A DNA stretch of 64,000 nt from Boswellia sacra (Eukaryota; Streptophyta; Magnoliopsida; Sapindales; Burseraceae): contig SNVD02012968.1 of NCBI GenBank assembly GCA_013180625.2, positions 372,001 through 436,000 of the forward strand, written 5' to 3'. How positions within the stretch are numbered: position 1 is the stretch's first letter; every line of letters starts with the position of its first letter. Both the position numbers and the translations under genes were made by a program. The notes under the pieces are model-generated. The model had not been told where the DNA came from, searched no databases, and worked only from the letters and a program-made list of their open reading frames with translations. This document shows, one piece after another, positions 1 through 61,614 of the stretch.

Positions 1-2309
1 CAGAAGGGCAACCAAGTAAAGGGGCTTCAGCTTTGATTCACAAATCTGCACAAGATAAAAATTATGCACAACACAAATAGAGAAGTAAGACCAACCAAAA
101 ACAAAGGTGAATGTATTAGTTAAGTTTTGGACATAAAGTTCTGTCTCCCCAAAAGAGAAACCAAAACCCAGGCATAAGAAATGGTTTTGCTCATAGAAAG
201 CACGTAATATCACCACTACAGTTATGATTTTACACACCAGCTTGTAAGATTCCAATTTATCTGGCAGCTTATAACGACTTTCCCCAGTTGTCAAAAATAA
301 AGGGTGATGCAGGTCAAGCCGAGCAAGCTTGCTTGGATCTTGGGTTAAAGTGGCAGATAGAACCATCTTCACCAGCCTAGGGTAAGGTTTATCCTTAAAT
401 CCCCTCTCAACGCTGCTGCAACAAATACACAATAATATTTGAACAAGGCCAAATAAATCAGGGGCTGTAATCAACTTTCTAATCGAGGAAATTTGAGAAA
501 ATGTTATCTTTTAAACTGCATTGATGATAAGAAAAGTCTAAGCATCAGCTATCCTACGAAACTATCTTGGAATGCACTTTAAATCCCAGAAAATAATTTA
601 CCCAAAAAATAAATCCCAACCTTAAAAGTACTGTAACCATTAGATGTACCATCATAATCTAGTGACAAACTAAAAGCACATTTACCTTCAGCACTTTAGT
701 GGCAGAGACTAATTTTAACTAATAGCAGTTATGTATACTATTTAATCTTAGGTAATTTGCAATCAATATTGCCCCCAAGCTGTACCGTCAGTTCAGTCAG
801 GCAGTTAAAGTTAAAACTGGTGGTAGGCACCAGAACACAGCAAATTTAAAAGGTATATCTGTAACAAAGGAACGTAAGTTCAATGTAGAACTCACCATCT
901 TCTTATGGTTTTTAAAGAACCAAATGTAGAATGAATAAACGAATCTGCAAACTGAAAGTGGCTTCCATCATTAGAGCGAGTTAAATGAAGCACATTTGGC
1001 AGCCAGGCTTGGTATGCCTCCCGAAGTAATCTATCTGTTTCATCAACAACCTGAATGGCATAAATAATCAGGCATAAGAAACAACTTAAAATAAAGCTTA
1101 TTAAGATAGTCCACTAGGGCCATGCACACCAAAATTATTGAAGTTGATTCTCCAGCTAATAAGTAATCCTAAAATCAATCATGCCTCAGAAATGCAAATC
1201 GTGATTTATGTTGCAAGAGGCAACCAATTAATAGATAACAGAATTGCCAAGTAATATCAGAGGACAACAGATGGACCAGAGCAATGAACATATATATCGC
1301 CATCATAATTGACAATCCCCAGTGTAATAATGACAAAGTCCATAATTCTTCTAGAATCAGCCAAGAGTAACAAACATCTGCAACTTACAAGGTAACATAG
1401 ATGCTCAAGTGTAAACCCTTTAGTTGTATTAATATGGTCCATAAGCCTTCCCGGTGTCGCCACCAGTATATCAACAGCACTTTGTAACTCTTGAAAATGA
1501 TCTTCTGGATCAAAACAGATTCCTGCCTCAACCTTTGGCCTCTTAATAAGCTCTGAAATTTCATCAGCAATTGAAGATTGACCCACAGCCAAACCAACAG
1601 ATAAGCCCACTGCAGGTGCAATTGCAGCAAACACTTCCTTCACCTGAATTACAGAAAGGAAACCAACCGAATGATCAATAAGCATCATATCATGACGAGC
1701 GAATCCATCATCAACTCATATGAAATTCAGTGACCAAATCATCTAGTCTCGTCAACTTGTCAAGTCTCACCAAAAAGGGAATCAAAGAGATTAAAGCTCT
1801 ATTAAATTTCAAAAACAACCCTTTGAACTTGATTATTTTTGCAAACTGCCTGAGATTCAGAAATTCAACCTGCAAGGCTAAATCACGTGTAGGCAACACC
1901 ACCAGAGCACGCAGACATCTAACAGCACGATTGGACAGCGCTTGCACTATTGGCAGAGCATAAGATAAAGTTTTCCCACTTCCCGTCGGTGAGTTGATGC
2001 AGAGGTCTCGTTCAAAAGAACCAGGACCAATTGTCTCCTGCCAAACAGCAACCTGCACTGGGAACAGTGAAGCAAAACCCATGTTCTGCAATGCCACCTT
2101 CAACCTAATTAACCAGAATTTAACAAACCAAATAAATGTAAGCATAATCTACGAAAACGTAACATATAATAAGCAATGCAGATGTGAAGTGGGTACCTGG
2201 GGTCGAGACAGGGGAGTGTGTCGAGAGAGCAGTCTGCAAAGGCACTTACGTCAACTGGATTTCGCATCCATGGCAAAATTGGCAAGTTTTTCTTCTTGGA
2301 CTCCTCCAT
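1..2309 (-). CDS. RH1: DEAD-box ATP-dependent RNA helicase, RH1-like (5' part)
   Basis: Partial gene reading leftward off the window. Exons (minus): 2309-2197, 2104-1870, 1643-1389, 1050-896, 415-238 and 45-1; all junctions are GT-AG and the phase is continuous for 327 codons. The protein starts MEESKKKNLPILPWMRNP. Visible helicase motifs: Q-motif region at about residues 48-59 (GFASLFPVQ), Walker A SPTGSGKT (76-83), motif Ia PTRDLA (109-114), motif Ib TPGR (179-182), motif II VDETD (203-207) and motif III SAT (273-275). Only the first RecA domain and the start of the second are inside the window. By family knowledge this is an ATP-dependent RNA unwinding enzyme; the DETD form of motif II and the overall sequence fit plant RH1 (Arabidopsis At4g15850 from memory). 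The ATG at 2309 was chosen because it opens the first exon and is followed by a sequence typical of this family. High confidence in family, good in orthology. Confidence 0.9.
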
Positions 2310-2493: not shown

Positions 2494-3479
2494 TGCCAAG
2501 ATGGTGATTTCTTGTAAAAATCCTTATTTGATATTAATTTTCTTATTTGAAAACAATAATAATATTTTACCATGTCAAACAATTGAATGAATTCCAACCT
2601 TAAAAGTTTTGAAAACTTAATCATATAACATAAGATTCTTTCTAAGAAATTGGAGAGAAAGAGACAGATGATAGTGATTCATAGCATTTTAAAATGATAA
2701 TTAGAAGTAATTTGCCAGCAAGAAAATAACACATGTAATGTGTAATCCTAGTATTGTTAAAAAAAATTATATTAGTCTAATCTAAGTCCAATCATTCAAT
2801 AAATTGTATCATAATATTTGTTATATGAAATCATTCATTTTGCCCTTTTCCAAAAGACCTGTTATTAATTCATATAAGATACCAACTGTTCCAATGTTGA
2901 ATGCTACACGCATCTTAATTTTATGCGTTTGATGTAAGCTAATGGAGAATTGAATTGGTTGTTACGGGCGGAGTTTAAGGGCCATGAGATGACGTATGAG
3001 CCTAAAAGAATTGCAAATGAATATGAAAATTAAAATATTTTCCAAATAGAACTTTCGATGGATAAATGTTTAGATAACGTAGGACCAAAATGGGTTTATT
3101 ATAGTATGCTCAGCCTACAATGAAAATGTTAATCATTTTGGCATCCCGTGAGCGTGGATGAGGCTATTACATCACCTATAGCTACAACGTCAATAAAGTT
3201 TGTACCACGCAAAGATAAGGAAAAACTATACGTCCGAAATATTTATTATTTATTTTTATTTTCATCATTCCAACACAAAACATTGAATTAATAATCATGA
3301 AAACTAAATAATCCAAAAAATTTTGTTGACAAATTTTTGTTGAACAATTATTGGGAAAACAAATTTTAAAAAATTTATAATAATATACTTTTCATGTTGG
3401 GTTCACGATGGCATGCATGACATGTGACCATTTGTTTTATCACCTTGTGAAAGAAAACTTTACTTTATATTAAATTCCT
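2494..3479. other. AT-rich intergenic stretch
   Basis: No open frame with protein-family character, no RNA gene and no clear repeat structure was seen here. It separates the RH1 promoter from a block of transposon remnants. Confidence 0.5.
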
Positions 3480-3875
3480 GGGTCATACTACGGTACTGTT
3501 GATATACCGGTATATCAATTTTTAAATTTGTGTAAAAGTTGTAAATGAATGTGTAAAAATTATAAATCAATATGTAAAAGTTGTAAATACAACTTTTATA
3601 TACTTAGTTATAATTTTTTTAAAAGAGTGTGTAAAAATTATAAATAAGTTTGTAAAAGTTGTAAATGAGTGTGTAAAAATTGTAAATGAATATATAAACA
3701 TTGTATTACAACTTTTACATACATTCATTTACAACTTTTACATGTCATGTATTACTTTTACACGTTAACTTACGACTTTTACATGTCATTTATTACTTTT
3801 ATACGTTAATTTACGACTTTTACACAATTTCACAAATTGCAGCATCGGTACATCAGTTGTACCGTAGCCACACTC
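3480..3875. mobile_element. Foldback/MITE-like element with repeat-filled arms
   Basis: About 396 bp forming a near-palindrome. The left end GGGTCATACTACGGTAC and the reverse complement of the right end GAGTGTGGCTACGGTAC share CTACGGTAC, followed in both arms by TGAT-A/G-TACCG. Each arm is built of degenerate ~20-bp tandem units of the type TGTAAAAGTTGTAAATGAA. There is no coding capacity. A clean target-site duplication could not be identified (flanks TAAATTCCT and TAAAATTGG are only loosely alike), so the exact ends and superfamily are uncertain. Confidence 0.55.
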
Positions 3876-14748: not shown

Positions 14749-25695
<10,947 letters not shown>

Positions 25696-29600: not shown

Positions 29601-32600
29601 CTGTGTTTGTGTGCATGTGTGTTTGGTTGTTTGACTATTTGATGAGGGATTCATGCCTGTGATGTGTTCTTTTTTCAATCATAATTTGTTTGTTTGAGGA
29701 ATGAAATAAGAAGTCCTATAGGTCTAATTGGCTATGATAAGTAAAAAATTCTAATAATTGCCATTGCATAACCAAGTTGTAGTGACTTTTTTCCTTTGGA
29801 CATTGTCTGATTTGGTTTCATGAAGCCCGTAATCTTGAATTGTATAGTTATTTTGATTCTGGGATACACAAATATATCTGATTACATAATTTATATGTTG
29901 CCCATTTTTTATGCCAAGTGTTTGTTTAGTTCTTTTCTCCTTGCTAAAAATAACTTGTTTGGTAAATCAACATCATCTTCATCAGCTTATCCTTTTGTAC
30001 TTTCACTAAATTTGATTCTTTGCCTATTCTTTTTGCTTTCGTACCTTTTCTCCCGAAAATTTTCTCTGGTTTAAGTTGAAGATGCTGGTGAAGCTTTTGC
30101 CAAGCAGCTGGATGTTGACCACAAAGTGAATTGTCCATGGAGAGGAAATAACTGTCCAGAAAGTTTGGTGCAGTTCCCCCCAACTCCCCAGTCTGCCTTA
30201 ATTGGGGGATATAAGGATAGATGTGATGGACTCGTACAATTTCAATCTCTTCCTGTTGTAGCTACATGTGCAATTGAGCAGATGCGGGTGTCTCGAGGCC
30301 CACAGATTGATCGCTTTCTGTCCCAGTCGCAGAATCTTACAGCTGGAGAAGTAGATGTAAAACCTGAAAGTATGCAGGAAGTTGAAACGTCTCGTGATGG
30401 TGCCTTCTACATGTATTCTCGAGTATGAAAATCTATGTTCTTGCTCCTGTAATTTAACCATTATGTTTATTATTTCATTATCTGATTGATAACTTGTTCT
30501 ATTTGTATCTCCATAGTTTATTTTCTTTCTTTCTTTATTTATTTTTTGCCAGGCACAGAAGCTTATAAGTCTGTGTGGATGGGAACCAAGGTGGCTTCCA
30601 AATGTTCAAGATTGTGAAGAACATTCTGCTCAGTCAGCAAGAGATGGATGTTCTGTTGGGCCGTCTGAGGCCCTGGTCCATCTATCAAAGGATCCAGGAC
30701 GAAGCAAAAATACACTCTCTGCCTCAGCCAAAAGGGACACTGGAAAGAATAAAATGGTGGCTGTGGAGTCCAGACATGAATATAGGTCACCTTTATTAGA
30801 CTGTAGCTTATGCGGTGCAACTGTGCGAATATCAGATTTCTTAACTGTTCCTCGACCTGCTCGTTTTACTTCAAACAACATCGATATCCCTGATACAAGC
30901 AAAAAAATGGGGCTGACCCTTGGAGTCAGTGCAGCTAGTGGAATTAGTGGTTGGGTTGCTGCTGATGATCCAGAGAAAGAACAAATAGAAGATCGTGATG
31001 AAGTGGCAACAACAGATGAGGGGAAACTGCTACAAAATACTGAATTTGATTTGAATTTGACAATGGCAGGGGGTTTGCCTTTTACTCAGCGGGGAAGGAC
31101 TGGAACTGCAGAAAATGTCCATGATGTGGACATGGGAAGGGACCTAATGATTGGTCAACCATCTGGGAGTGAGGTAGGTGATCGTGCAGCATCATATGAA
31201 TCTAGGGGTCCTAGTTCTCGTAAGCGGAGCCTAGAAATAGGTGGCAGCTCAGAAGATAGGCCACACTTGAGGATGCAGCAGGCGGATAGTGTTGAAGGTA
31301 CAGTCATTGATCGTGATGGTGAAGAAGTTACTGACAGTCGACAATATTCGGCTGGGCCTTCAAAACGTGCTCGGGACTTTGATGTATTTGATACACACTG
31401 TTCACCGTATCTGAGAGACTCATCTGGAGCTGGTCCTAGCCATTCAATGGGCTTGGAAATTCAGGCAGATGGAAACAGAGGTTCGTTGTTTCGACAAGGA
31501 AGTGACCAAGTTGGAGTCCTATCAACTAGAGATTCAACGCGTGCATCATCTGTCATTGCAATGGATACGGTCTGTCATAGTGCTGATGATGACTCTATGG
31601 AAAGTGTTGAAAATTCTCCTGGGGATGTTGATGATGTTCATTTTCCCTCTTCTAGTACACAAGGAATTTTTGAGATGAATGACACTTCGGAACTAAATTA
31701 TAGTAATCAGGCTCAGCATAGCATCTATTCCCGACGAGCTGTTGCAGCAGTTCCTGGGGAAATGGGTATCAGCAGTACAAATGATGGTGAAGAAATTTTT
31801 AATGCAGAAACTGTGACGGCTCAGGCTAGGGATGGACTTAGTTTTGGAATTAGTGGAGGGAGTGTTGGTATGTGCGCTAGCCATGAAGCTGAAATCCATG
31901 GTGCTGATGTTTCTGTTCATAGAACTAATAGTGTAGTTGGTGACATGGAGCCGAGAACTGAAGATGCTGAAAACCAGGGCCAGACGGGTGAATCTGCTCC
32001 AGATCCTGGATTAATGGATGAGATTGTCCCTGATGAAGTAAATAGGGAAGATCCACATGGTGATAGCCAGGAGATGCTATCTCGGTCGGTTGGAAGGGCT
32101 GACAGTGGTTCAAAAGTTGATGGTTCTGCCAAAGCGGAATCTGTTGAAAGCGGAGAAAAGATAAGTCAGAGTTGCAAGGCAGCCCAAGGAAATAGTGCTC
32201 ACCCTTCTCTTTCATGTAATGCTAATATCTATTCAGGATACAATACAACCAAGAATGAGGTCACAAAGAATGGAAAATCATCATCTACCAACAATTGTCC
32301 ATACCCAGAGTCTGAATATGCAGTTGCAAATGGGATAGGTAATTTTGGCCTACCTTTCTGGCCTAGGGTTTTATTTTCCCATTTTTTCTGCTCCTCCAAT
32401 TATTCTGTTTAGGTTGGCAACAATTCCAGTGAATGAGAAGTCATGATGGATCCTCTGTAATCAAATGATACTCCTTTAGAAGGAGGCTCTTATTTAGATG
32501 GACACCTGTTCTTTTATTTATTATTTATTTTTTAAAATCAATATATAGTTTTCTGTTTCTTATACAGAATTAAGTCATTGTCTGGATTTTGTTTTGGTTG

Positions 32601-37114: not shown

Positions 37115-38032
37115 ATGCCAGCGCCATCGGCAACAGCTTTACACTCTTCTTTCTGCATATCTTCTTCACGGACACCATCATCATCTTCTCCCTCAAGTTC
37201 CCAGCAACTAAGTTTTCACTTAGCAACTAAACCCAAAAGCCTTCTCCAAAATCACCCTCTGTACCCACCAACTAATGCAAACCTCTCCTTCCAAATCCAA
37301 GAAAAAATCATTTGTCTTGAAATCATGGGCATTGACTCCGGCAAGGCATTGTCCCTCAACCCCTCTCTCCGCTCAGCTCCTCTTCATTCCATTCATGCAA
37401 TCATTTCCTTTCTCCAATCCAAAGGCATCCAGCAGAAGGACTTGCCAAGAATCTTTGGTATGTGCCCAAAACTCCTCACTGCTGACATAAAAAATGACAT
37501 TGACCCAGTCTTTAACTTCCTCTCACAAGACTTAAAAGTCCCAGAACATAACTTCCGGAGGGTCATCAACAAATGCCCAAGATTGCTAGTTTCAAGTGTG
37601 AGAGACCAGCTCAAACCAGCTCTCTTTTATCTTCAAAGACTTGGGTTCAAGGACTTGGAGGCTTTGGCTTACCAAGATACAGTCTTGTTAGTGTCCAGTG
37701 TGGAACACACTTTCATACCTAAGCTCAAGTATTTGGAGAGTGTCGGGTTCTCAAAGGATGAGACTCTGGTTATGGTTTTGAGGTGTCCAGGGCTGTTTAC
37801 TTTCAGTGTTGAGAACAACTATAAGCCTAAATTTGAATTCTTTGTTGAGGAGATGAATGGAAAGCTGGAGGACCTGAAGGACTTTCCTCAGTATTTTGCG
37901 TTTAGTTTGGAAAAGAGGATCAAGCCGAGGCACTTGGAGATGTTGCGAAGTGGTGTGAGACTATCTTTACCAGCCATGCTTAAGTGCACGGATGAACAGT
38001 TCAATGAGTTGATAAAGCGAGGGGATGGATGA
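37115..38032 (+). CDS. mTERF family protein, organelle-targeted, single exon
   Basis: An uninterrupted 305-aa frame. Residues 1 to about 65 are rich in Ser/Pro and poor in acidic residues, like a plastid or mitochondrial transit peptide. From about 85 onward it shows mTERF repeats with Pro-containing signatures: CPKLL (117-121), CPRLL (154-158), CPGLF (224-228) and FPQYF (257-261), ending with LEKRIKPRHLEML. mTERF proteins are helical-repeat nucleic-acid binders acting in organelle gene expression (transcription termination, RNA processing). Size and single exon resemble Arabidopsis At2g34620 (mTERF10, from memory). It lies 0.9 kb upstream of, and co-oriented with, the SPS3 gene, an arrangement also known in Arabidopsis. 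The ATG at 37115 is the first in frame and precedes the transit-like segment. Organelle destination is inferred. Confidence 0.9.
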   Translation: MPAPSATALHSSFCISSSRTPSSSSPSSSQQLSFHLATKPKSLLQNHPLYPPTNANLSFQIQEKIICLEIMGIDSGKALSLNPSLRSAPLHSIHAIISFLQSKGIQQKDLPRIFGMCPKLLTADIKNDIDPVFNFLSQDLKVPEHNFRRVINKCPRLLVSSVRDQLKPALFYLQRLGFKDLEALAYQDTVLLVSSVEHTFIPKLKYLESVGFSKDETLVMVLRCPGLFTFSVENNYKPKFEFFVEEMNGKLEDLKDFPQYFAFSLEKRIKPRHLEMLRSGVRLSLPAMLKCTDEQFNELIKRGDG

Positions 38033-49399: not shown

Positions 49400-50409
49400 T
49401 GTGGGTGCATTAAATCTTACCTTATTCATGACCTAAAATTTTGATTTTTGAGGATGAAAAAGCAAGGAATCGTTTGGAAAAGTTGGGACGATATTAAGGA
49501 GCCCTTTGAGCGGGGCTTCCATCCTATTCCAAGCGCTTGCGACCTCAACATTGTTTTTCAAGCCCCTTTCGGACCTTAGGTGTACCATAGGTCAAGTCAC
49601 AAAGATAAGCCCGAAGATCATGGAGTCGTCACCCAGGAGTAACCATAAGAAAATTGAAGGATGGCAATCCAATCCCCTGCTTCTAGACCTAAACTGCTAA
49701 CTTTTTAGGAGATGAGCTTAAAAAGGTAGGTATGGATCTTCGATCTGTCCAGACAAAGCTTGACCTCTACTAGGGTCTACCGAATCCAAAGTTTTAGATT
49801 GTTAACTATTGTCCATCTTGAACCTATTTCATTTAATGCTTACAACCGATTTTATCTTATTATTCCATGTGAGATAAGACAGTTTATATACATCCAAAGA
49901 AAAAGGGAGGAGAATAGATTACAAATCTATTCTAACAAGGGGGAAAAGGGGAAGGGACTACAAACACTCTTTACAATGCATAAAAATAGATGCGTAAAGT
50001 AAATAAGTTCAAGATAAAGGAACTAAATCAAAGCACTCTGAATATTGATCAAATCCTGCCTAAGTGCGCCAAGGACTATAAAGGGGTCTACCATTGGAAA
50101 ACAGATCCTTCACCAAACAATGTGAATCCATCCATTCTCCAATCACCCTCATGGCCACCCTTTCATCAAAACTTCCATAATCAAATACTACCTACAATTC
50201 ATCAAAACAGATTCCTTAGCAAACAAAGCGACTCTATCCAACAACAACACTCCGAAAATGACATCAACTCCTCAAACAGGTTCTCCACTAGGCAATGTGG
50301 GTCTACCTCTCTCCAATGGCTCCTATACGCCCATCCTAACCTCCAATCTCCGAGATTAATTCCTTGCCACCAATATGAGTCTATCCACCACCAATACTTC
50401 AAATCACAT
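49400..50409. repeat. Older repeat sequence, probably LTR-retrotransposon remnant (left part)
   Basis: Contains AGTCGTCACCCAGGAGT-like wording common in plant LTR elements, then a CA-rich stretch with recurring CAATGTG(A/G)(A/G)TC(C/T) phrases. The same kind of phrase (AGCAATGTGGGTTCGCTC) recurs just right of the Athila insertion near 61702, which suggests one older repeat interrupted at 50409/61615. No protein domain was recognised, so class is uncertain. Confidence 0.35.
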
Positions 50410-51784
50410 TGATGAACACTTAAATATGTATGCTTAATAAGAGTTTAGTTTATCATATTGCATTAATAGTGTCATTAAATTTCTCAACTTAAGCATGTTT
50501 GTAGTCTTTGCATCTTTGGAATTAACTTTCTCTAAATTTTGGTTTTGTTATAGGTTTGGTAAAATAGGCATAACCTTCTATTTATAGACCATAATGGTGC
50601 AAATCTTAATGTTTTGGAAAGCTGATTAAATTATCTACAAGATTGTATTTCACAAGCATCATCAAATTTGGGCTTTTAATGGATCAAAAATGGGCTTGAA
50701 CTGAACCCATCAGTAGTTTCAACCCAGCCTGACCATGCCTCAGTATTTTAACCATATCTCTCAAGATACGTATCCAAATCATATAAATCAAGATATTCTA
50801 GAAAGGTGAGAGAAATATCTACGACTTTCATGAAGACATATGATTAAAATTCTCAATACTTCAATGTCAAAATCGGTGGTCAAAATCAGTTCACCTAATT
50901 ACCCCAATTATCAAAGTTGGTGCATATAATATTTGACAATTATTCCTTTGTAAATTGACAAGTTTGCCCCTAAATGTATCTATAAATAGAGATGCCTTGT
51001 GACCCATTAGAGCATCTTGGCCTTTGCTGGGATCTTTTGTTATTGTGATTTTCTCTCCTGTGTTTTTATGTTATTAATGAATTTTCTTTTTCTTATAATT
51101 AGTTTTCTTTCTCTTATAATGTATTTCTAATTTCTCTCTTGCTAAGGTGAAAGGGTGAAACCCTTGATATGAGAGTAAGGATTTTCTAACCCTTTGATAT
51201 GTGCTTTTATCATAATCTTGTGTTGTTTACTTTTTATGATTTATATTTATCTTCTTAATCAATCTTGACACCACTCGTAAAGTGGAGGTCTTGATTCAGT
51301 GTCTACAATCCTTGGCACATCAAATGCTTGGATCCTTTATAGATGTCATATGGTTCTTCCTCACCGACACGAATCTAGTTAGGAACCTTGATTTGTTGTA
51401 GACATATGGTGATTGACACATTGGATGCTTGAACCCATTTACAAGAAGTGGTATAAATATTGGTAACGAAACAAATATAATTCATATAACTAAAATGGGT
51501 TAATTATCCTTATTTGAAATATCAAGGGCGGATCCCCTAACCTTAGCTTTCATTATTATTGTGTTAATTTCTCTTGTGTTATTCTCATTTATTATTTAAG
51601 AACTTGTTCTTTAATCATATTTGTTGATATTATCTTGCCATCCCTTGGAATCATCCACATCATATTTGCTTACTTATAGTTTGTAGTGCTAAAATCTCCT
51701 TCCTCGTGGATCGACCCCGGTCTCACCGGGTTTATTACTTCGACACTCCTATACTTGGGAGACAATCCTTTTTCGGATGTGTCA
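50410..51784 (+). repeat. 5' LTR of the Athila element
   Basis: Direct repeat of 60235-61609. Contains a TATA-like promoter motif TATAAATAG at 50981-50989, likely driving the element's RNA; the 3' copy has TTTAAATAG at the equivalent place. Confidence 0.92.
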
Positions 51785-51788
51785 AGTT

Positions 51789-51810
51789 TTTAGCGCCGTT
51801 GTCGGGGAAG
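51789..51810 (+). other. Primer binding site of the Athila element
   Basis: TTTAGCGCCGTTGTCGGGGA lies just after the 5' LTR. It differs at two or so places from the TGGCGCCGTTGCCGGGGA site usual in Athila/Tat elements. Confidence 0.75.
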
Positions 51811-51987
51811 GTAAAAATTAGCATGCAAAATTGTAAGTATTCTCTTCTCTCATTTTAGATCTTAATTTTTTTACTTTGTTGTGTGTTCATCTTTTCTTCT
51901 CTTTTCTTCTCTCTTTCTTGCATGAAAATTTTGTCATGAACATCTAGTGGTAGACTTGTTAGAAAAACATCATCTTCCTTAGAAAAC

Positions 51988-53370
51988 ATGGCCGACAATC
52001 TAGTGGAAAGGTTCACGGATGAAGGGGACAATCGTTCCCAACAAAATGATCAGAACCAACCAAGAACCCTCAGAGACTACATGAATCCGGTAAGGACTAG
52101 TGCACCATCTTGTGTAGTTTCTCCTCCAGATTCAATCCATTTCAATTTCAAACCAAGTTTTGTGCAACTTCTACCTACCTTTCATGTCCTTGATATGGGG
52201 AACCCATATTCGCATTTAAAAATCTTTGAAGAGGTGCGTAACTCCTACAGTGACCCAAATTGTAGCATAAACACCATTAGATTAAAGCTTTTTCCTTTTT
52301 CCTTAAAAGATAAAGCTAGAATATGGCTACAAAATTTGAGGTCAAATTCTATCAGTTCATGGGATGAGATGAAACAACAATTTTTAAAAAATTTTTTTCC
52401 TACCCATAGAACAAATTCTCTTAAAAGACAAATTTCTAATTTCGCTGAAAAACAAGGGGAAACCTTTTACCAATGTTGGGATAGGTATAAGGAACTTAAT
52501 ACCTGTCCTCACCATGGTTTTGAAACTTGGAGAATAGTTGCACACTTCTATGAAGGGTTAACACCTCAAGATAGGCAGCTAGTAGAATTAATGTGTAATG
52601 GAGAATTTGGAGATAAAGATCCTGAGGAAGCAATTGACTACCTAGATTCCTTGATAGAAAAGGCACAAAATTGGGACACTGCTGGCACCTATGAGGTACC
52701 AAGCAAGGCCCCAACCTCGACATCCAATAGAGGCATTTACAACCTTAGGGAAGACCATGACCTTTAAGCCAAATATGCATCCCTAGCTAGAAAAGTCGAG
52801 GCTTTAGAAATGAAAAAGAGTGGTCAATTGAATTCTATTCAAGAAAATGTCTATAACATCTATAATGACAATGACCATTCTATTGATAATTGCCCAACTT
52901 TGCCTGCCTTTAGGGAATGTCTCCATGAAGAAGCCAATGCCTTGAACACTTTCAAAAGGCCAAATCACAATCCATACTCACACACCTACAATCCTGGTTG
53001 GAGAAATCATCCAAATTTTAGTTGAAAAAATGACAATCATACACAATCTTCACAAGTCCCTTTTCAAACACGACAAAATTTTCAAAATTCTCATGATCAT
53101 GCATATGCTCCTCCTCCTAGGAATGACATTGAGAAACATTGCATTCATTCATTACAAAGCAAGAGACTTTCAATAGTCAAACTGCTCAAACATTAGCAAA
53201 TTTGTTAGACATTCTTGCAAAATTTGTATCTACATTTAGCATCCAAGAGAAAGGAAAATTCCTTTTCAAACATTGCAAAACCCCAAAGATCAATCTAGCT
53301 CAAATGCAAGGAGTTCAAGTAACCGTTATTTTGACCAAGTCAAATCAGTCATGACCCTTCGCAACGGTAA
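51988..53370 (+). pseudogene. Athila gag, interrupted
   Basis: An open frame 51988-52767 (MADNLVERFTDEGDN...) carries the retrotransposon gag core: LKLFPFSLKDKARIWLQNL, SSWDEMKQQFLKNFFP, CWDRYKELNTCPHHGFETW. It is stopped at 52765. Further pieces, including VYNIYNDNDHSIDNCPTLPA at 52810-53025 and 53139-53354, are in broken frames. The product would have formed the particle shell; here it is truncated. Confidence 0.85.
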
Positions 53371-53485
53371 GGTTGTTGAAAAATAAATTCCTAACCCTTC
53401 TGAGAAAGAAGAAGAATCGATCTCTAAAGGGCAAGAAGGGGTTGTCAAACCAACACCTAGCAAAGAAGAAACCAAATCCTCATCT

Positions 53486-54373
53486 GTGCCTCCATTTCCT
53501 CAAGCATTAGCCACGCAAAAGAAGCCAACTCACAATTCTAAAATTTTTGAAATTTTCAAACAGGTAAAGGTCAACATTCCCTTGCTAGATGTGATCAAAC
53601 AGGTACCTTCTTACGCAAAATTTTTAAAAGACTTGTGCACTGTGAAAGGGAAACTGAATGTGAAAAAGAAGGCCTTTCTAGCCGAGCAAGTAAGTGCTAT
53701 TTTTCAAAACAATAATACAGTGAAATATAAAGATCCAGGTTGTCCTACAATTTCATGTGTTATTGGAGACCATAAAATTGAACAAGCTTTACTTGATCTT
53801 GGTGCTAGTGTGAATTTGCTTCCATATTTAGTTTTTCAGAAACTCAATATAGGTGAGTTAAAACCGACTTCTGTGACTTTTTTGCTTGCTGATAGATCAA
53901 TCAAAGTACTAAGAGGAGTAGTAAAAGATGTGTTAGTTCAAGTCGATAAATTCATTTACCCAGTAGATTTTATCGTCTTGGACACACAACCAGTGGAAGT
54001 ATGTAATTCAATTCCTGTCATTTTAGGGCGTCCATTTCTAGCTATCTTTAATGTTTTGATTAATTGCAGGAATAGAGTCATGAAGCTATCATTTGGGAAC
54101 ATGACATTGGAACTTAGTGTTTTCAATATGTGCAAACAACCACATGAAGAAGAAGATGAAATTGAGGAGGCCAATGTGATTGAAACTATTGTGGAATACC
54201 ATATCCAAAAAGAGAGTTCTTCTGACCCTTTGGAAACCTGTTTAGTGAATTCATTAGAATCAAGTATGGAACTAGAACCTGATTTTTCTGATATGTGTTC
54301 TTTATTAGGATTGTGCACAGGTGATGGAAAAAGGCTCAAAATCAAGATTCGAAGAATTGGGGCAAATGAATGA
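53486..54373 (+). pseudogene. Athila aspartic protease region
   Basis: A 295-codon open frame with FLKDLCTVKGKL, CPTISCVIGDHKIEQALLDL, the active-site segment LDLGASVNLLP, and a second half VILGRPFLA. These are the standard landmarks of the Athila gag-pol protease domain. It is open within itself but separated from gag and from the reverse transcriptase by stops and frameshifts. Confidence 0.82.
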
Positions 54374-55743
54374 AAGCAAGGAAGAGGAAGCTTCCAAGTT
54401 AGAACTGAAGCCTTTACCTGAAGGACTGAAATATGCATATCTTGGAGAGAATCAGACATATCCGTTGGTAATTTCTTCATCTCTCACAACCGAGCAACAA
54501 GGTAAGTTGATACACGTACTTAAAAGGCATAAAAATGCAATCGGGTAGACTTTAAAAGACATAAAAGGCGTTAACATTTGATTTGTACACATAGAATACA
54601 TTTAGAAGAAAATGCAAAAACATCCCAACAACCGTAAAGGAGATTAAATCCCCATATGAAAGAGGTGATTAGGGCTGAAGTTCTCAAACTACTTGATATG
54701 GGAATTATCTATCCTATTTCTGATAATAAGTGGGTAAGCCCTACACAAGTAGTACCTAAGAAATCTGGCATTACAGTAATCAAAAATGAAAAAGGGTGAA
54801 TTATTGCCAACTCGAGTCTCATCTAGTTGGAGGATGTGCATTGATTATAGAAAATTAAATGCTGTCACCAAAAAAAACCATTTTTCCTTACCTTTCCTTG
54901 ACCAATTTCTTGAAAAAGTAGCAGGGCACTCCTACGACTGTTTTCTTGATGGATATTCAGGCTATTATTAAATTCCCATTGCACTCGAAGACCAAGAAAA
55001 GACCACATTCACATGCCCTTCGGCACTTTTGCATTTAGGAGAATTCCTTTTAGACTTTGCAATGCCCCAGCCACTTTTCAAAGATGCATGTTAAGCATTT
55101 TTAGTGACATGGTTGAGCATTGTTTAGAAGTTTTTATGGATGATTTAACTGTCTTTGGAAACTCTTTTGATAATTGTCATGAATACTTAGAAAAAGTCCT
55201 AAAAAGGTGTGAAGAAAAAGGTCTTATTTTGAATTGGAAAAAATATCATTATATGGTCACTTCAGGAATTGTCTTAGGTCATGTGGTGTTTTCTAAGGGA
55301 ATTGAAGTAGACAAAGTAAAAGTGGAATTAATTTTCCATTTGCCTCCACCAAAAACAGTTAAAGAGGTACGTTCATTCTTAGGGGATGCTGGATTTTATA
55401 GGAGGTTCATAAGAAATTTCAGTGCTATATTTAAACCTCTTTGTAACCTCTTACTAAAAGACACTTCTTTTGAATGGACTCAAGAATGTCAAAATGCCTT
55501 TGATAAGTTAATTGGACTTTTAACAACTGCTCCAATTATGCAATCTCTTGATTGGTTCTTGCCATTTGAGTTGATGTGTGATGCAAGTGACTATGCCGTT
55601 GGTGCTGTCTTAGGACAAAGAAAAGAAGGTAAGCCTTATGTAATATACTATACAAGTAGGACTTTAAATGATGCACAAATGAATTATACAACAACTGAAA
55701 AAGAACTACTTGTAGTAGTATTTGCATTGGACAAATTTTGATC
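54374..55743 (+). pseudogene. Athila reverse transcriptase and RNase H, with stops
   Basis: Stops and frameshifts at 54540-54790 and near 54970. Recognisable blocks: WRMCIDYRKLNAVTKKNHF (54786-54971 frame), then in 55013-55741 MPFGTFAFRRIPFRLCNAPA, the catalytic box VFMDDLTVFG and LPPPKTVKEVRSFLG, and RNase H DASDYAVGAVLGQRK. The frame ends at 55741 inside RNase H. Confidence 0.85.
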
Positions 55744-57275
55744 GTATTTAATTGGTTCTCCTACGATTGTTTATATTGACCATGCAGCTGTGAGATATTT
55801 AATGTCTAAACAGGATGCAAAACCTAGATTGATACGGTGGATCTTCTTGCTCCAAGAATTCAACATCACAATAAAGGATAAGAAAGGAGTCGAAAATGTC
55901 GTTGCAGATCATCTTTCAAGACTAACGACAGAGACATTAATTGAAACTTCACCTATCAATGATTCTTTTCCTAATGAATTTTTTTTTGTTGCTGCTGTAC
56001 CTTGGTTTGCTAACATTGTAAATTTCCTTGCAACAGGAAAAATGTCACCTCATTGGAATGCTCAAGACAAAAGAAAGTTTTTGACCGAGGTGAAAAATTT
56101 TTATTGGGATGACCCATATCTGTTCAAATATTATCCGGACCAAATAATTAGAAGATGCATACCCGACAATGAGGTAAGTAGTGTCATTAATTTTTGTCAT
56201 TTCGAAGCATGTGAACGACATTTTTCATCTAGAAAAACAACTGCTAAAATCTTGCAATGTAGATTTTATTGGCCCACCTTATTTAAAGATGCACATGCAT
56301 TTTGCAAAACTTGTGAAAATTGTAAAAAATTGGGATCCATTTCAAAAAGAAACATGATGCTTTTGAATCCCATTCTTGTTATTGAAATCTTTGACTGTTG
56401 GGGTATTAATTTTATGAGACCTTTTCCACCATCATTTGGTTTTGTGTACATTCTTGTTGCAGTAGACTATGTTTCAAAATGGGTCGAGGCAATTCCATGT
56501 CGAAACAATGATCACAAAACAGTTATCAAATTCTTGAAAGAGAATATCTTGTGTAGATTTGAAATTCCTCGAGCCATTATCAGTGATGGGGGTACACATT
56601 TTTGTAACAAACCATTTGAAACCTTAACGAAGAAATATTGAATAACCCATAAAATTTCTACACCTTATCACCCGTAAACAAGTGGACAAGTTGAATTAGC
56701 TAATAGGGAGATAAAACAGATCTTAGAAAAAACGGTTAACCCAAATCGTAAAGATTGGTATTTAAGACTCAATGATGCACTTTGGGCTTACCGAACTGCT
56801 TTCAAAACATCATTGGGAATGTCTCCTTATAGATTAGTTTATGGAAAACCTTGTCACTTTCCTGTGAAAATTGAGCATAAAGCTTATTGGGCCATTAAAA
56901 CATTTAACACAAACTTGAATGATGCTTGCAAGTTACGTAAACTCCAACTGAGAAATCAGGAATGAGGCTTATGAAAATTCTAAAATCTACAAAGAAAAAA
57001 TGAAGGTTTTTCATGACAAATTCATTGTTAGAAAATCTTTTGAACCTTCACAAAAAGTTCTTTTGTATGATTCAAGATTGCACTTGTTTCCTGGTAAACT
57101 TTGATCTCGTTGGACTGGGCCTTTCATTGTTAAAAATGTTTTCCCTTATGGAGCAGTTGAAATTGAGAACCCAAAGAACGGTAATGTGTTTAAAGTTAAT
57201 GGATAACGGTTAAAACTATTCTTTAAAAATTTTGACCAAAATGAAGAGTCCATTGCTTTAATCGATCCTTTTTAA
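55744..57275 (+). pseudogene. Athila integrase, with stops and a lost catalytic Asp
   Basis: The frame 55790-56641 carries the end of RNase H and the integrase: zinc region HFEACERHF...CKTCENCKK, catalytic core WGINFMRPFPPS and IISDGGTHF. After a stop, the third catalytic segment [15 protein letters not shown] follows (near 56690), then the C-terminal part with [14 protein letters not shown] and a stop at 57273-57275. Athila integrases normally have GIDF; here it is GINF, so the first catalytic Asp is Asn. Confidence 0.82.
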
Positions 57276-57402
57276 GGATTGATTTCTCCCGGTCAAGTGG
57301 CAGATATAGTACTCCGTGGCTTTTAAAGTCGGTTTTTCAGTTTCCTAAAAACTGTTGCTCACCTTACACCCATTTTCTTTTCTTCTCTCTCATTTTCTTC
57401 AC

Positions 57403-58050
57403 ATGGATACCATTCTCTCAAAATTGCATAAACATTTTCCTTTTCTTCCTCAAAATGATTTGCTTAAAATTTACAAAGCTCGCGCAGAGAGACTAAGGAT
57501 GTTGATGTGTAAGGGTATGCCTGCTGATGTAAGATGGTTAATTGAAGTCAAGGTTTGATTTTCTTGTGAATTTTCAAATGATCTTGTTTCTCACATGCCA
57601 GGTATGGGAAAAAGCTCTTACGCCAAAAAGCGAAGGGCGAAAAGGTTACAAGTTTGTCCCAAATATGCAAGATGGACTTGTAACCAGCATTGTAGCTCCT
57701 TGGGATATTTGTCTAATAATCGTGAGGATAAACTACAGTTCATCAAGAATGGACTGAGTAGGGAGTCTTTGGATGATATCCGAATGACTCTTGAGATGTA
57801 TTCTTGTGGACTTGTGCAGCGTGAAATTTTTAAACTATGGACACAATTCTGAGATTAGCAGGAATGCTATAGTCTTGGGAATCTGACTCAAAACGACCCT
57901 GTTTGCCAGTTTATAAGAAAACTGGAAGGGAAGCATATCCCCAACTCATAGAAGGTGTTTAAGCCGTTTCTGGACGTAAAACCAGAGGAAGATGTGAGCC
58001 ACAGTCACAACTACCTGTACATATGCATGCGTGCCATCATTTTTGAATTT
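57403..58050 (+). pseudogene. Unrecognised frame between pol and LOG in the Athila element
   Basis: One frame runs from MDTILSKLHKHFPFLPQNDL (57403) to about 58050 with stops at 57556, 57850, 57856, 57949 and 58048. Between stops it reads like protein: a basic stretch (AKKRRAKRLQVCPKYARWTC), then NREDKLQFIKNGLSRESLDD, LVQREIFKLW and PVCQFIRKLEGKHIPNS. I do not recognise a family. The region corresponds to the place where Athila elements carry an env-like frame, but no membrane segment is seen. It may be a second captured gene or an element-specific protein. A 49-nt GT-AG intron could skip the first stop but would shift the frame, so a nonsense mutation is simpler. Confidence 0.45.
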
Positions 58051-58254
58051 TAATGCCTATTAGCTATCATTTTTGAATTTGTGTCTTATTTCTTATTTCA
58101 TCATCTTTTTTTGAATTTCTATGCATAATTGTCAAATTTTCAACAAGCAGTCGAGCTACCTATTTGGATGTCATCATTAGCATACCTTTTTGCACTCCAT
58201 AAATACCACATCTCTTGTTCTCTTCCTCACACATAGTTAGAGAGTTGCATAGAC

Positions 58255-58905
58255 ATGGAGGGAACTTCAAAACGTCGAATCCAAATGATATGTGTATTCT
58301 GTGGATCTCGACCGAGTAAAAGTAAGGAGTTTGTAGAAGCAGCAAATTATCTTGGTAGGCTACTGGCTGAAAGAAAGATTCATGTGGTTTATGGGGGAGG
58401 TAGCCTCGGGTTAATGGGTTGTGTGTCAACAGCTGCACATGTAGAAGGTAGTCAAGTTTTAGGAGTTGTTCCTAAAGCTTTGGCTATAGAAAGCATTGTT
58501 GGAAAAACAGTTGGGCATGAATTACAAGTCTCCTCTATATATGAACGCATGGCACATATGCTCATCAATTCAGATGCCTTTATTGCTTTACCAGGTGGCT
58601 TTGGTACTCTCAAAGAAATTTTTTAAATTGCCTCTTGGGCCCAACTGAATCTCCATAAAAAACCCATAGGTTTGTTGAATGTTAAAAATTTCTTTGATCC
58701 TTTAATAAGTTTTGTTGATGCAGCTGTAGAACAAAATTTTATCCCTTATTCGGCGAGACAGTTCCTTGTTTCTGCCACTTCTGCTGGTGAGTTACTTGAC
58801 AAATTACAAGCAGTTGAGTATAAACCTAACCCAGCTAGTATTCAAATTAATTGGTCAGGAGGGCAAAACAAAAAGTACAAATTGGATCTGAATCTCCGTT
58901 TGTAA
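58255..58905 (+). pseudogene. LOG-type cytokinin phosphoribohydrolase captured by the retrotransposon
   Basis: A 216-codon frame (start MEGTSKRRIQMICVFCGSRP) identical in layout to plant LOG enzymes (usual length about 215 aa). Motifs: VYGGGSLGLMG (45-55), GVVPKAL (70-76), ERMAHM with Arg98, and the signature PGGFGTLKE (113-121, catalytic Glu121). After one in-frame TAA (codon 124, 58624-58626) it continues as IASWAQLNLHKKPIGLLNV, then FVDAAVEQNFI and AGELLDKLQAVEY, to a terminal TAA at 58903. LOG enzymes release active cytokinin bases from their nucleoside monophosphates in the cytosol. Host LOG genes have several introns; this copy has none, implying capture from a spliced RNA. It lies in the element's sense strand, 1 kb downstream of pol. 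The stop makes the present copy a pseudogene. Confidence 0.88.
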
Positions 58906-60234
58906 TTTTTTTTCTTGTCTTTTATTTTATTTTATTTTTGGCATTTTATTTTATGAGTCTTTCAAGTCATATCTCTTGAATAACAGAAGCTTCAGGTAAT
59001 GTCTCCTATACTTTATCTCTCTACATTTAAACATTGAGGACAATGTTTCATTCGGTTGGGGGGGAAGGATAGTAGACATAAGTGTGTCTTTAATTTTTTT
59101 TCTTAAAAAAAAAAACGAGTTAGTAATTAGATTCAGAGTGCGGTGTAAGGAGTTCAAATCCTCTTGAGACGCATTCTGGTTCAGGAATGGCAGAGTAGGG
59201 AGGGCCAGTTTGAACTCTTGAAACACGCTCTAATCAATTTGTCATTTTGTTTTGATTTTGTATTTTTTAGGACTCATTTTAGTTAACTTGATATTATTTA
59301 GTTTTGATTTTTGAATTTTATAACAAGGAGGTCTTATTTATTTCACTTTGAATTATTCAAATCTATGAACTCTCACAATCTTATCATTTAATAAACTGTG
59401 TGCTTATGTACTCGTTAAGCAAGTATTCATGAACCTTTCTTCACACACACACACATACCTTGATGCATGATTGTGGATGGCGAAATAAAATGTTGCAATG
59501 TTTGAGTTCTTTTATTTTGTTTAGGATAACAACAAAAGGAAAGGGAAAGTAAAAAAAAAAAAAGCAAAAAAAAAAGTGAAAAAAAGAGAAGAAGAGAAAG
59601 CAATTGTGGATAAGTCTGGTCTCGTAGCCTCCTTAATTCGAGCAATTAAGCCCAATGGGTGCCTCAACACCTAATACCCTAAGACCAACTGGTTTGGGAG
59701 CTATTGGCCCAAAGCTCGCTACATGGATTAAGGAGAAAGCTTAATGGGATTGAACATTGCACTATCCACAAGTTTCTAAGCAAAAATAAAGCATCGGCAA
59801 CCCGAGTCGTTAAGCTCGAAGGGGTGTCTTAACACCTAATGCCCTAAGGCCAACTGGTCTGGGAGTTATTAGCCTAAGGCTCGCTACATGGGTTAAAGAT
59901 GCATTCTTTCAAAAAAAAAAAAACAGAAAACATATATAATAAATAAATGAATGCCCCTTACCTAAAGTTGTTAGCCTTAACAAATATTAGAACCGATATG
60001 GCTTCTTTCTAATAAGCCCCATAGTCATGTGTCGACTGAGCACAAAAATAAGGTTTATTGATATCTTGACTGAAGGGTACATGAGTCATTAAAAAAATCG
60101 GTTGAGAGTTTGTTTATTTGGATAAAATCAAGTAGAGTGCAATAATGACCACCTTGGATGTAAAATTCTATACATCACTTCTAAATAATAACGCTCTAAT
60201 TGCTAGGGACTAGCAATAAGCTGGTTGGGGGGTG
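58906..60234 (+). other. Athila 3' non-coding region with two polypurine-like tracts
   Basis: An internal G-rich tract (GGTTGGGGGGGAAGGATAG, about 59057-59075) follows a TTGAGGACAATGT phrase common in Athila/Tat elements. The terminal tract GGTTGGGGGGTG (60223-60234) abuts the 3' LTR and is the likely plus-strand primer. Between them are A/G-rich runs (59520-59600) and a two-copy repeat. Confidence 0.6.
59640..59908 (+). repeat. Two-copy tandem repeat in the Athila 3' region
   Basis: Copies start at about 59640 and 59806. Shared wording: CACCTAAT(A/G)CCCTAAG(A/G)CCAACTGGT, then GGGAG(C/T)TATT and GCTCGCTACATGG(A/G)TTAA. Period about 166 bp. Non-coding. Confidence 0.7.
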
Positions 60235-61609
60235 TGATGAACACTTAAATATGTATGCTTAATAAGAGTTTAGTTTATCATATTGCATTAATAATGTTAT
60301 TAAATTCCTCAACTTAAGCATGTTTGTAGTCTTTGCATCTTTGGAATTAACTTTCTCTTAATTTTGGTTTTGTTACAAGTTCGGTAAAATGGGCATAACC
60401 TTCTATTTATAGATCATAATGGTGCAAATCTTAATATTTTGGAAAGCTGATTAAATTATCTACAAGATTGTATTTTCACAAGCATCATCAAATTCAGGCT
60501 CTTAGTGGACCGAAAATAGGCTTGAAGTGAACCCATCGGCAGTTTCGGCCCAGCCTGACCATGCCTCAGTATTTTGACCATATCTCTCAAGATACGTATC
60601 CAAATCGTATAAATCAAGTTGTTCTAGAAAGTTGAGAGAAATATCTACGACTTTTATGAAGACATGTGGTTAAAATTCTCAATACTTTAATGTCAAAATC
60701 GGTGGTCAAAATCGGTTTACCTAATTACCCTAATTGTCAAAGTTGGTGCATCTAATATTTGACAATTATTTCTTTGTAAATTGACAAGTTTGCCCCTGAA
60801 TGTATCTTTAAATAGAGGTGCCTTGTGACCCATTAGGGCATCTTGGCCTTTGTTGGGATCTTGTTATTGTGATTTTCTCTCCTGTATTTTTATGTTATTA
60901 ATGAATTTCTTTTTTCTTATAATTAGTTTTCTTTCTCTTATAATGTCTTTTTAATTTCTCTCTTGCTAAGGTGAAAGGTGAAACCCTTGATATGAGAGTA
61001 AAGATTTTCTAACCCTTTGATATGTGCTTAATTATCATAATCTTGTGTTGTTTACTTTATATGATTTATATTTATCTTCTTAATCAATCTTGACACCACT
61101 AGTAAAGTGGAGGTCTTGATCCAGTGTCGATAATCCTTGGCACATCAAATACTTGGATCCTTTATAGATGTCATATGGTTCTTCCTCACCGACACGAATC
61201 TAGTTAGAAACCTTGATTTGTTGTAGACATATGGTGATTGGCACATTGGATGCTTGAACCCATTTACAAGAAGTGGTATAAATATTGGTAACGAAACAAA
61301 TATAATTCATATAACTAAAACGGGTTGTTTATCCTTATTTGAAATATCAAGGGCAGATCCCCTAACCTTAGCTCTCATTATTATTGTGTTAATTTCTCTT
61401 GTGTTATTCTCATTTATTGTTTAAGAACTTGTTCTTTACTCATATTTGTTGATATTATCTTGCCATCCCTTGGAATCATCCACATCAGATTTGCTTACTT
61501 ATAGTTTGTAGCGCTAAAATACTTTTCCTCGTTGATCGATCCCAGTCTCACCGGGTTTATTACTTCGACACTCCTATATTTGGGAGAGAATCCTTTTTCG
61601 GATGTGTCA
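60235..61609 (+). repeat. 3' LTR of the Athila element
   Basis: Direct repeat of 50410-51784 with the same length; three differences are seen in the first ~78 bases, suggesting a moderately old insertion. Confidence 0.92.
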
Positions 61610-61614
61610 CACAT

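Follow-up and report, generated by a model that had tools for sequence, protein, structure and literature searches.

In Boswellia sacra, an LTR retrotransposon carries an intronless gene of the LOG family, and this element LOG looks old and selected, contrary to an origin as recent cargo. The element lies in a stretch of 64,000 nucleotides, which is the whole of the DNA analysed and is referred to here as the window. Its LOG frame is preceded by a second frame resembling the nucleic-acid-binding proteins (NABPs) of RNA viruses. We lean towards the reading that the two frames, LOG and NABP-like, form a selected accessory cassette of an old rosid lineage of Athila-type elements, and that this cassette acts on the host.

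The retrotransposon in the window

The element spans 50410-61609, about 11,200 bp (Table 1). The features on which a preliminary description of this DNA had been based, namely an intronless, sense-oriented LOG frame between pol and the 3′ LTR, an LTR pair (94.6% identical) and a 5-bp target-site duplication (CACAT), were all present. The LTR pair, the 5-bp duplication and the TG...CA ends agree with the structure of the Athila lineage, and gag is followed by a weak protease match, reverse transcriptase/RNase H and integrase, which is the expected PR-RT-RH-INT order. Integrase-like reading could be followed by eye, in shifting frames, to about 57309. The primer-binding site was compared with a tRNA-Asp reference site of Athila type, with the core GGCGCCGTTGCCGGGGA; this core was also found in locus L040, described below. 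The site in the window is tRNA-Asp-like, i.e. of a non-chromovirus kind, and not tRNA-Met; tRNA-Asp is counted among the non-chromovirus primers (PMC6317226). No chromodomain was found in the four element frames scanned with Pfam, a scan that ended before the broken C-terminal part of the integrase. The anatomy, the tRNA-Asp-type site and general features of the group together point to placement of the element as Athila-type.

Table 1. Features of the retrotransposon, numbered from the first base of the window
Feature	Position	Strand	Evidence
Target-site duplication CACAT, 5′ side	50405..50409	.	Sequence comparison
5′ LTR, 1375 bp, TG...CA	50410..51784	+	94.6% identity with 3′ LTR over 1372 aligned columns
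tRNA-Asp-type primer-binding site	51791..51808	+	2 of 18 positions differ from reference site
gag frame, 259 aa	51988..52767	+	Pfam Retrotrans_gag, 1.6e-19
Protease-region frame, 295 aa	53486..54373	+	Asp_protease_2, 0.00013, 23 bits, below curated cut-off of 24.3
Reverse transcriptase/RNase H frame, both ends broken	55013..55741	+	Pfam RVT_1, RT_RNaseH
RNase H end and integrase frame	55790..56641	+	Pfam rve, Integrase_H2C2
NABP-like accessory frame between pol and LOG, stop at 57556-57558	57403..57849	+	Pfam
LOG-type accessory gene, intronless, interrupted	58255..58905	+	Pfam, solved-chain match
In-frame TAA, codon 124 of LOG frame	58624..58626	+	Translation
Element-type C-terminal tail, basic cluster and LxLxL	58870..58902	+	Window ends KKYKLDLNLRL
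Polypurine tract abutting 3′ LTR	60224..60234	+	By eye
3′ LTR, 1375 bp	60235..61609	+	LTR comparison
Target-site duplication CACAT, 3′ side	61610..61614	.	Sequence comparison

The LTRs have diverged by a K2P distance of 0.056, which gives an age of about 2.2-4.0 My with the substitution rates used for LTR dating, 1.3e-8 and 7e-9. The element had been called complete, but gag-pol is interrupted throughout by stops and frame changes. Because gag-pol and LOG are both broken, the window copy is a decayed member of its group and not a working element. No further copy of the element was found in the rest of the 64-kb window (blastn, 1e-5).

Several other features of the window were recorded. A stretch of about 90 bases is repeated about 164 bases apart in the non-coding region 59301-60234 of the element. 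Outside it, a frame with a reverse transcriptase domain (18909-19667, minus strand; RVT_1, 4.5e-32) is a further retroelement remnant, and two frames matching DEAD-box helicases (1257-2145, minus strand), one of them below its cut-off, are probably host gene exons. The plus strand has an open mTERF-family frame of 305 aa (37115-38032; 2.3e-44) and, at 30754-32412, an open frame of 552 aa for which Pfam gave no match.

The LOG frame

The LOG frame matched Pfam Lysine_decarbox at 4.6e-34, and its closest solved chain was Arabidopsis At2g37210 (3.5e-56). It has the LOG domain, the catalytic Arg and Glu, and the family motifs in the forms GGGSLGLMG and PGGFGTLKE (the latter PGGxGTxxE), with a break after codon 123. 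It had been described as a full-length open frame of 216 codons, which has to be corrected: only 123 codons are open before the TAA at codon 124, and the window copy no longer codes for a full LOG protein. Since its insertion, 18 substitutions and 0.57 stops would be expected in the window LOG (probability of no stop, 0.56), so that a single stop is unremarkable at the age of the element.

Upstream of the LOG ATG are a TATA-like string and a pyrimidine tract that ends in AG, so that the gene could be expressed either from its own promoter or through a spliced subgenomic RNA. Alignment of the host protein P0266 began 69 bases before this ATG. Capture of a host 5′ UTR together with the LOG was considered and dropped, as the first 40 residues of P0266 alone were unmatched there. 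Downstream, a run of 11 A lies at 59105-59115, 200 bases beyond the LOG stop codon. Scans of IMG/VR with the protein P0001 and with the element-type alignment gave no close relative of the LOG. Two IMG/VR contigs have LOG-family matches of 26% identity (L001, 9605-10141; L002, 2813-3349).

Copies in the Boswellia genome share one junction

The genome was searched over 7431 contigs, 638,608,913 bases in all. The 651-bp LOG gave 2864 first-look candidates, the best 40 of which were scored, and 41 matches were listed: the window itself, 39 places of full or nearly full length (94-95% identity) and one partial piece (93%). A gag query, for which the best 40 of 2635 first-look candidates were scored, gave 40 matches, the window included, all of at least 93%. 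The two candidate numbers are mostly unscored first-look figures and are distinct from confirmed copy numbers. With 41 LOG matches listed in its own genome, a chance association is excluded.

The preliminary description had proposed a search for other element copies with LOG at the same junction, and such copies were found. Twenty-one window-like copies besides the window were compared, one (L005) from the search and 20 fetched (L011-L030); L004 and L006-L010 duplicate fetched ones. In all 21 the segment that precedes LOG in the window lies directly upstream of LOG, and LTR-like sequence follows 1.6-3.5 kb downstream. The segment directly 3′ of LOG was unmatched in one copy, L011. The NABP-like segment lies upstream of LOG in 20 of the 21, although in L027 it amounts to just 122 bases; none was found in the 1500 bases covered upstream of LOG in L005. 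Ten of the 21 copies have no early stop or indel across LOG and 11 have one or the other, in a check that covered the frame apart from its start codon.

Origin and distribution of the element-type LOG

Host LOG genes were located by the motif pattern MH[QE]RKA, which gave 15 sites in the genome and none with the reversed control. Three of these loci were fetched, and in each the LOG consists of separate exon blocks spread over 1.4-2.4 kb. The one of LOG8 type is closest to proteins of Acer and Dimocarpus; the others are closest to a Cocos protein and to a chimeric Xanthoceras protein. Most LOG genes of peanut likewise have seven exons (PMC13257298). As the host LOGs are split and the element LOG is not, the element gene is of the processed kind. 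The earlier proposal that an element took up a spliced LOG mRNA and multiplied with it is thus upheld by the split host genes (3 of 3), the unsplit element copies and the common junction (21 of 21).

A tree of element and host LOGs, also called for in the preliminary description, placed 29 element-type rows, including the window, in one clade with support of 100/98 (IQ-TREE, LG+C20, 78 rows, hand-chosen from the 120 listed hits of one search and the listed hits of two others). Three Xanthoceras pieces join this clade at 100/100. It stands apart from the LOG1/3/4, LOG5/7 and LOG8 rows, and was recovered again in two further analyses. Its named members belong to the genera Populus (Malpighiales), Diplodiscus and Reevesia (Malvales), and Melia and Xanthoceras (Sapindales); the LOGs of Populus, Diplodiscus, Reevesia and Melia, like most of those from databases, are called element-type by clade alone. 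Two Xanthoceras gene models (P0002 and P0348) contain, between two LOG pieces, an Athila-type pre-protease segment with 53-54% identity to the window, which ties the Xanthoceras lineage to such elements as well. The simplest reading of the tree would be one LOG capture in the common ancestor of the group.

The element-type clade also holds two Populus proteins annotated as LOGL10 (P0037 and P0060). Judged from this placement, some of the genes annotated as LOG probably belong to elements.

A second subfamily and two copies lacking polymerase and integrase matches

A search with Arabidopsis LOG3 (P0123) gave 150 scored, unsplit matches of LOG length out of 13083 first-look candidates, and 142 of the 150 were free of inner stops, a row count from a protein ranking that favours open frames. 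The copies of a second subfamily were drawn from this protein-ranked list and are therefore biased to open, conserved frames. Eight such loci (L031-L038) have LOGs with 69-72% DNA identity to the window LOG. Five have a 216-codon LOG from ATG to stop, L035 has a stop, and in L032 and L033 the first ATG lies further along the frame. The NABP-like segment is upstream of LOG in all eight.

Two further loci, L039 and L040 (9.9 kb each), have LTR pieces that are 98% identical, a match to the protease region and an open 216-codon LOG; a gag match was found only in L040. Fourteen pieces of the window, from the end of the protease to the end of the integrase, were searched against them at 1e-3, and no match to reverse transcriptase, RNase H or integrase proper was found inside either element. 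The same 14 pieces matched two window-like loci throughout, among the matches listed. The piece from just before reverse transcriptase gave two matches in L039 and one in L040, and a single 24-residue match lay on the opposite strand of L040, past its 3′ LTR piece. With these pieces unmatched, L039 and L040 appear to be without reverse transcriptase, RNase H and integrase, yet with an open LOG.

L039 has two copies of the stretch that precedes reverse transcriptase in the window, one at 3134-3286 (43% identity) and one at 3746-3817 (24 residues, 75%). The shorter copy directly precedes the NABP-like frame; its counterpart in L040 has 62.5% identity. Between the window and L040, gag has 30% identical residues and the protease region 51%, with synonymous sites saturated in this one pair. 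From these comparisons, LOG and the NABP-like frame thus look like a more recent common possession of the window element and L040 than gag and protease. The younger look of LOG and NABP-like frame, together with the second pre-reverse-transcriptase stretch, suggests that recombination linked the 3′ cassette to a different element lineage, a suggestion drawn from one or two loci and a weak gag alignment.

Selection on the LOG frame

Selection was estimated between the window-like copies (subfamily 1) and subfamily 2. For stop-free copies (10 × 7, 70 pairs) dN was 0.239 and dS 1.222, a ratio of 0.196; this dS is near saturation, and the subfamily-2 sample favours conserved frames. Over all aligned copies (176 pairs) the ratio was 0.204. 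Within subfamilies it was 0.48 for subfamily 1 and 0.17 for subfamily 2, and the window LOG gave 0.69 against its own subfamily. The low ratio between subfamilies and the higher ratios within subfamily 1 and for the window are as would be expected from selection between insertions followed by decay. By these codon comparisons the element LOG is under purifying selection. The LOGs of L039 and L040, both from the protein-ranked list, differ by 6 non-synonymous and 23 synonymous changes. For the NABP-like piece, dN/dS was 0.175 between the window and L040 (one pair).

Pocket residues and C-terminal tail

Active-site residues were assigned from CgLOG, in which Arg99 and Glu122 are the proposed catalytic residues, Met96, Lys100 and Glu121 form the adenine site, and Met96, His97, Lys100, Glu125 and Trp129 form the prenyl site; alanine changes at its AMP-site residues nearly abolish activity, Ser19 excepted (PMC4979012). 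We aligned 118 element-type LOGs, including the window, with 238 host LOGs and two bacterial LOGs; three chimeric Xanthoceras proteins and P0348 were replaced by six pieces. The phosphate loop and the catalytic residues are nearly invariant in the element-type LOGs, which keep Arg99 in 111 of 118, Glu122 in 115 and Trp129 in 116. Lys100 is present in every host LOG (238 of 238), both bacterial LOGs and all six Xanthoceras pieces, but in only one of the 118 element-type LOGs, with Ile, Leu or Met taking its place in the remaining 117. Glu125 is found in 237 of the 238 host LOGs (one gap), both bacterial LOGs and all six Xanthoceras pieces, but again in a single element-type LOG, 111 having Gln or His. 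One protein, P0085, accounts for the exception at both sites. At site 97, 51 of the 118 have His. The window LOG has Met at the Lys100 site and its stop at the Glu125 site, and additional changes at sites 96 (Ile), 97 (Tyr) and 121 (Lys). Since alanine changes at AMP-site residues cost CgLOG its activity, the changed pocket and the frequent loss of His97 could instead be signs of an inactive enzyme.

A basic cluster and then LxLxL make up the end of 105 of 117 element-type LOGs, and none of the 238 host LOGs has them in its last 40 residues. This count leaves out the window, which has the motif, and the three Xanthoceras models, whose ends are chimeric and in which a tail was not seen. Several of the 12 tailless element-type LOGs have a near variant or a cut end. 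An alignment of 28 element-type LOGs showed no change at Lys207 or Leu212, whereas the stretch between Trp200 and Lys207 is variable. The tail is predicted to be unstructured: a model of P0005 had a mean pLDDT of 85.9, falling below 50 at residues 202-211 and 214-216. LxLxL EAR motifs bind and recruit TOPLESS (PMC10942257), and the tail would be EAR-like, a function suggested by the conservation of a short motif. P0085 has the tail, keeps the Lys and the Glu, and is the first branch among the tailed rows (99/93; remainder 98/91). A tailed protein with a classical pocket on the first branch suggests that the tail arose before the pocket change.

The NABP-like frame

In the window, the piece of the neighbouring frame after its stop (57559-57849) matched Carla_C4 with 22.5 bits, above the cut-off of 20.9, and Viral_NABP with 21.2 bits, against a cut-off of 23; the piece before it (57403-57555) had no Pfam match. 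Of eight sequences of this frame that were scanned, six exceeded the curated cut-off for Viral_NABP (PF05515) and seven that for Carla_C4 (PF01623), the best match across both families being 1.7e-10. Open relatives in L024, L028, L032 and L038 pass both cut-offs, and carla-type matches were also obtained in L033, L039 and L040. Throughout, the match rests on a basic, cysteine-rich segment in the middle part of the frame only. The frame is open over 182-186 codons in six of 32 distinct loci, some of which hold it in part. A structure search found no solved structure resembling it, and IMG/VR no close relative. By domain match, the frame probably encodes a nucleic-acid-binding protein of the carla-type RNA-virus kind. 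Viral NABPs of this type are able to suppress RNA silencing or to function in the nucleus.

Discussion

If the two frames form a selected cassette, as we favour, the parts may act as follows. The LOG-like enzyme would still cleave a nucleoside 5′-monophosphate, with an altered choice of N6 group, and through its tail the protein may reach the nucleus and TOPLESS-type corepressors. Its neighbour, the NABP-like protein, would bind RNA and might also counteract silencing. Their joint effect would be to ease transposition in the cell, which is probably a dividing cell of the meristem or a precursor of the germ line. A fuller version, in which an RNA-virus-type NABP is combined with a LOG rebuilt as a nuclear, corepressor-binding hydrolase of a new substrate, and in which the cassette is moved by recombination and selected even without reverse transcriptase and integrase, is put forward only tentatively.

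The element LOG may instead be an ordinary cytokinin-activating enzyme that raises free cytokinin and cell division, with its pocket changes tolerated. The retention of Arg99, Glu122 and the phosphate loop would fit this, as would the purifying selection, and the Xanthoceras pieces and P0085 keep the Lys and the Glu, so that the first captured form was probably classical. However, only 1 of 118 element-type LOGs has Lys100 and only 1 has Glu125, against 238 and 237 of 238 host LOGs, and both are prenyl-site residues of CgLOG, with Lys100 also in its adenine site (PMC4979012). We therefore consider an ordinary enzyme rather unlikely. The suggestion in the preliminary description that element copies altered cytokinin metabolism is weakened by the same finding, element-type LOGs being without two prenyl-pocket residues, one of them also adenine-binding. 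Were the enzyme role no longer to matter, the protein could be a nuclear adaptor that recruits TOPLESS-type corepressors through LxLxL. The tail, common to element-type LOGs (105 of 117), absent from the 238 host LOGs and predicted to be free, argues for this, as do the binding of TOPLESS by LxLxL EAR motifs (PMC10942257) and the sign from P0085 that the tail preceded the pocket change; but a pure adaptor would have no need of the nearly invariant catalytic residues and phosphate loop, and we judge it unlikely.

A processed LOG might be copied along with the element as a functionless passenger, as the stop in the window LOG and the stops or indels in 11 of the 21 other window-like copies would allow. 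Against this, dN/dS is 0.20 between subfamilies at a dS of about 1.2, one clade with its catalytic residues kept extends across several rosid families, and first-look candidates for LOG and gag are about equally many (2864 and 2635); a passenger is very improbable. That a lone host retrogene landed by chance in this one element after its integration was the case that the preliminary description had named as fatal to its proposal. The frame is intronless and the A11 run at 59105-59115 could be a poly-A remnant, but forty further genome matches were listed and LOG lies at the same junction in all 21 copies examined. Since other copies exist with LOG at that junction, this event is rejected, and its probability is negligible.

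The selected cassette has some parallels among known elements and proteins. Two Athila-like elements of Steinbauerova et al. (2011/2012, Genetica, doi 10.1007/s10709-012-9654-9) reportedly resembled LOGL4. To our knowledge, most of the additional frames in plant LTR elements have yet to be assigned a function. A YgdH (LOG) domain has been recorded in Gypsy consensuses of Citrus and, without a filter, of Populus, in a paper that cites Steinbauerova et al. 2011 (PMC9289625), which overturns the earlier impression that no LOG-carrying element had been described. These elements likewise have a LOG-like extra ORF in plant Ty3/gypsy, those of Steinbauerova et al. reportedly of Athila type. Selection on LOG, the pocket and tail changes, the NABP-like neighbour and copies lacking reverse transcriptase and integrase were not found in the available portion of that paper or among the open-licence PMC papers searched, where no further paper on a LOG-carrying element was recognised. 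Capture of LOG by Gypsy elements is thus already known, while the selection, pocket, tail, neighbour and copies without reverse transcriptase and integrase appear to be new. A Gypsy element of Phalaenopsis with an AlkB-type m6A RNA demethylase is also a case of a host-type enzyme fixed in Ty3/gypsy, but with another enzyme and another host, and with activity measured in vitro there as against sequence alone here (PMC9289625). A review links transduced genes to one or a few copies (PMC7264820).

The element LOG shares its fold family, PGGxGTxxE, GGGxxGLMG and the catalytic Arg and Glu with plant LOG1/3/4, LOG5/7 and LOG8, but differs from them in being intronless and multi-copy, in the absence of the prenyl-site Lys and Glu, and in its tail. 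The NABP-like frame is similarly related to carlavirus-type NABPs (PF05515, PF01623), which open relatives of the window frame match above the cut-offs, and differs from the carlavirus proteins in being encoded by a retrotransposon, in having about 183 codons where open, and in matching in the middle only.

Because selection, defined active-site changes and a defined tail coincide in the element LOG, its function is directly testable. The Populus LOGL10 proteins in the element clade and the chimeric Xanthoceras models mean that counts of LOG family genes may be distorted. If the fuller version of the cassette reading is true, LOG and its NABP-like neighbour would correspond, in plants, to retroviral accessory genes and to transduced growth genes. 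Confirmation of a host-acting cassette would mean that plant retrotransposons retain genes of host origin, and virus-like ones, as means of influencing the host.
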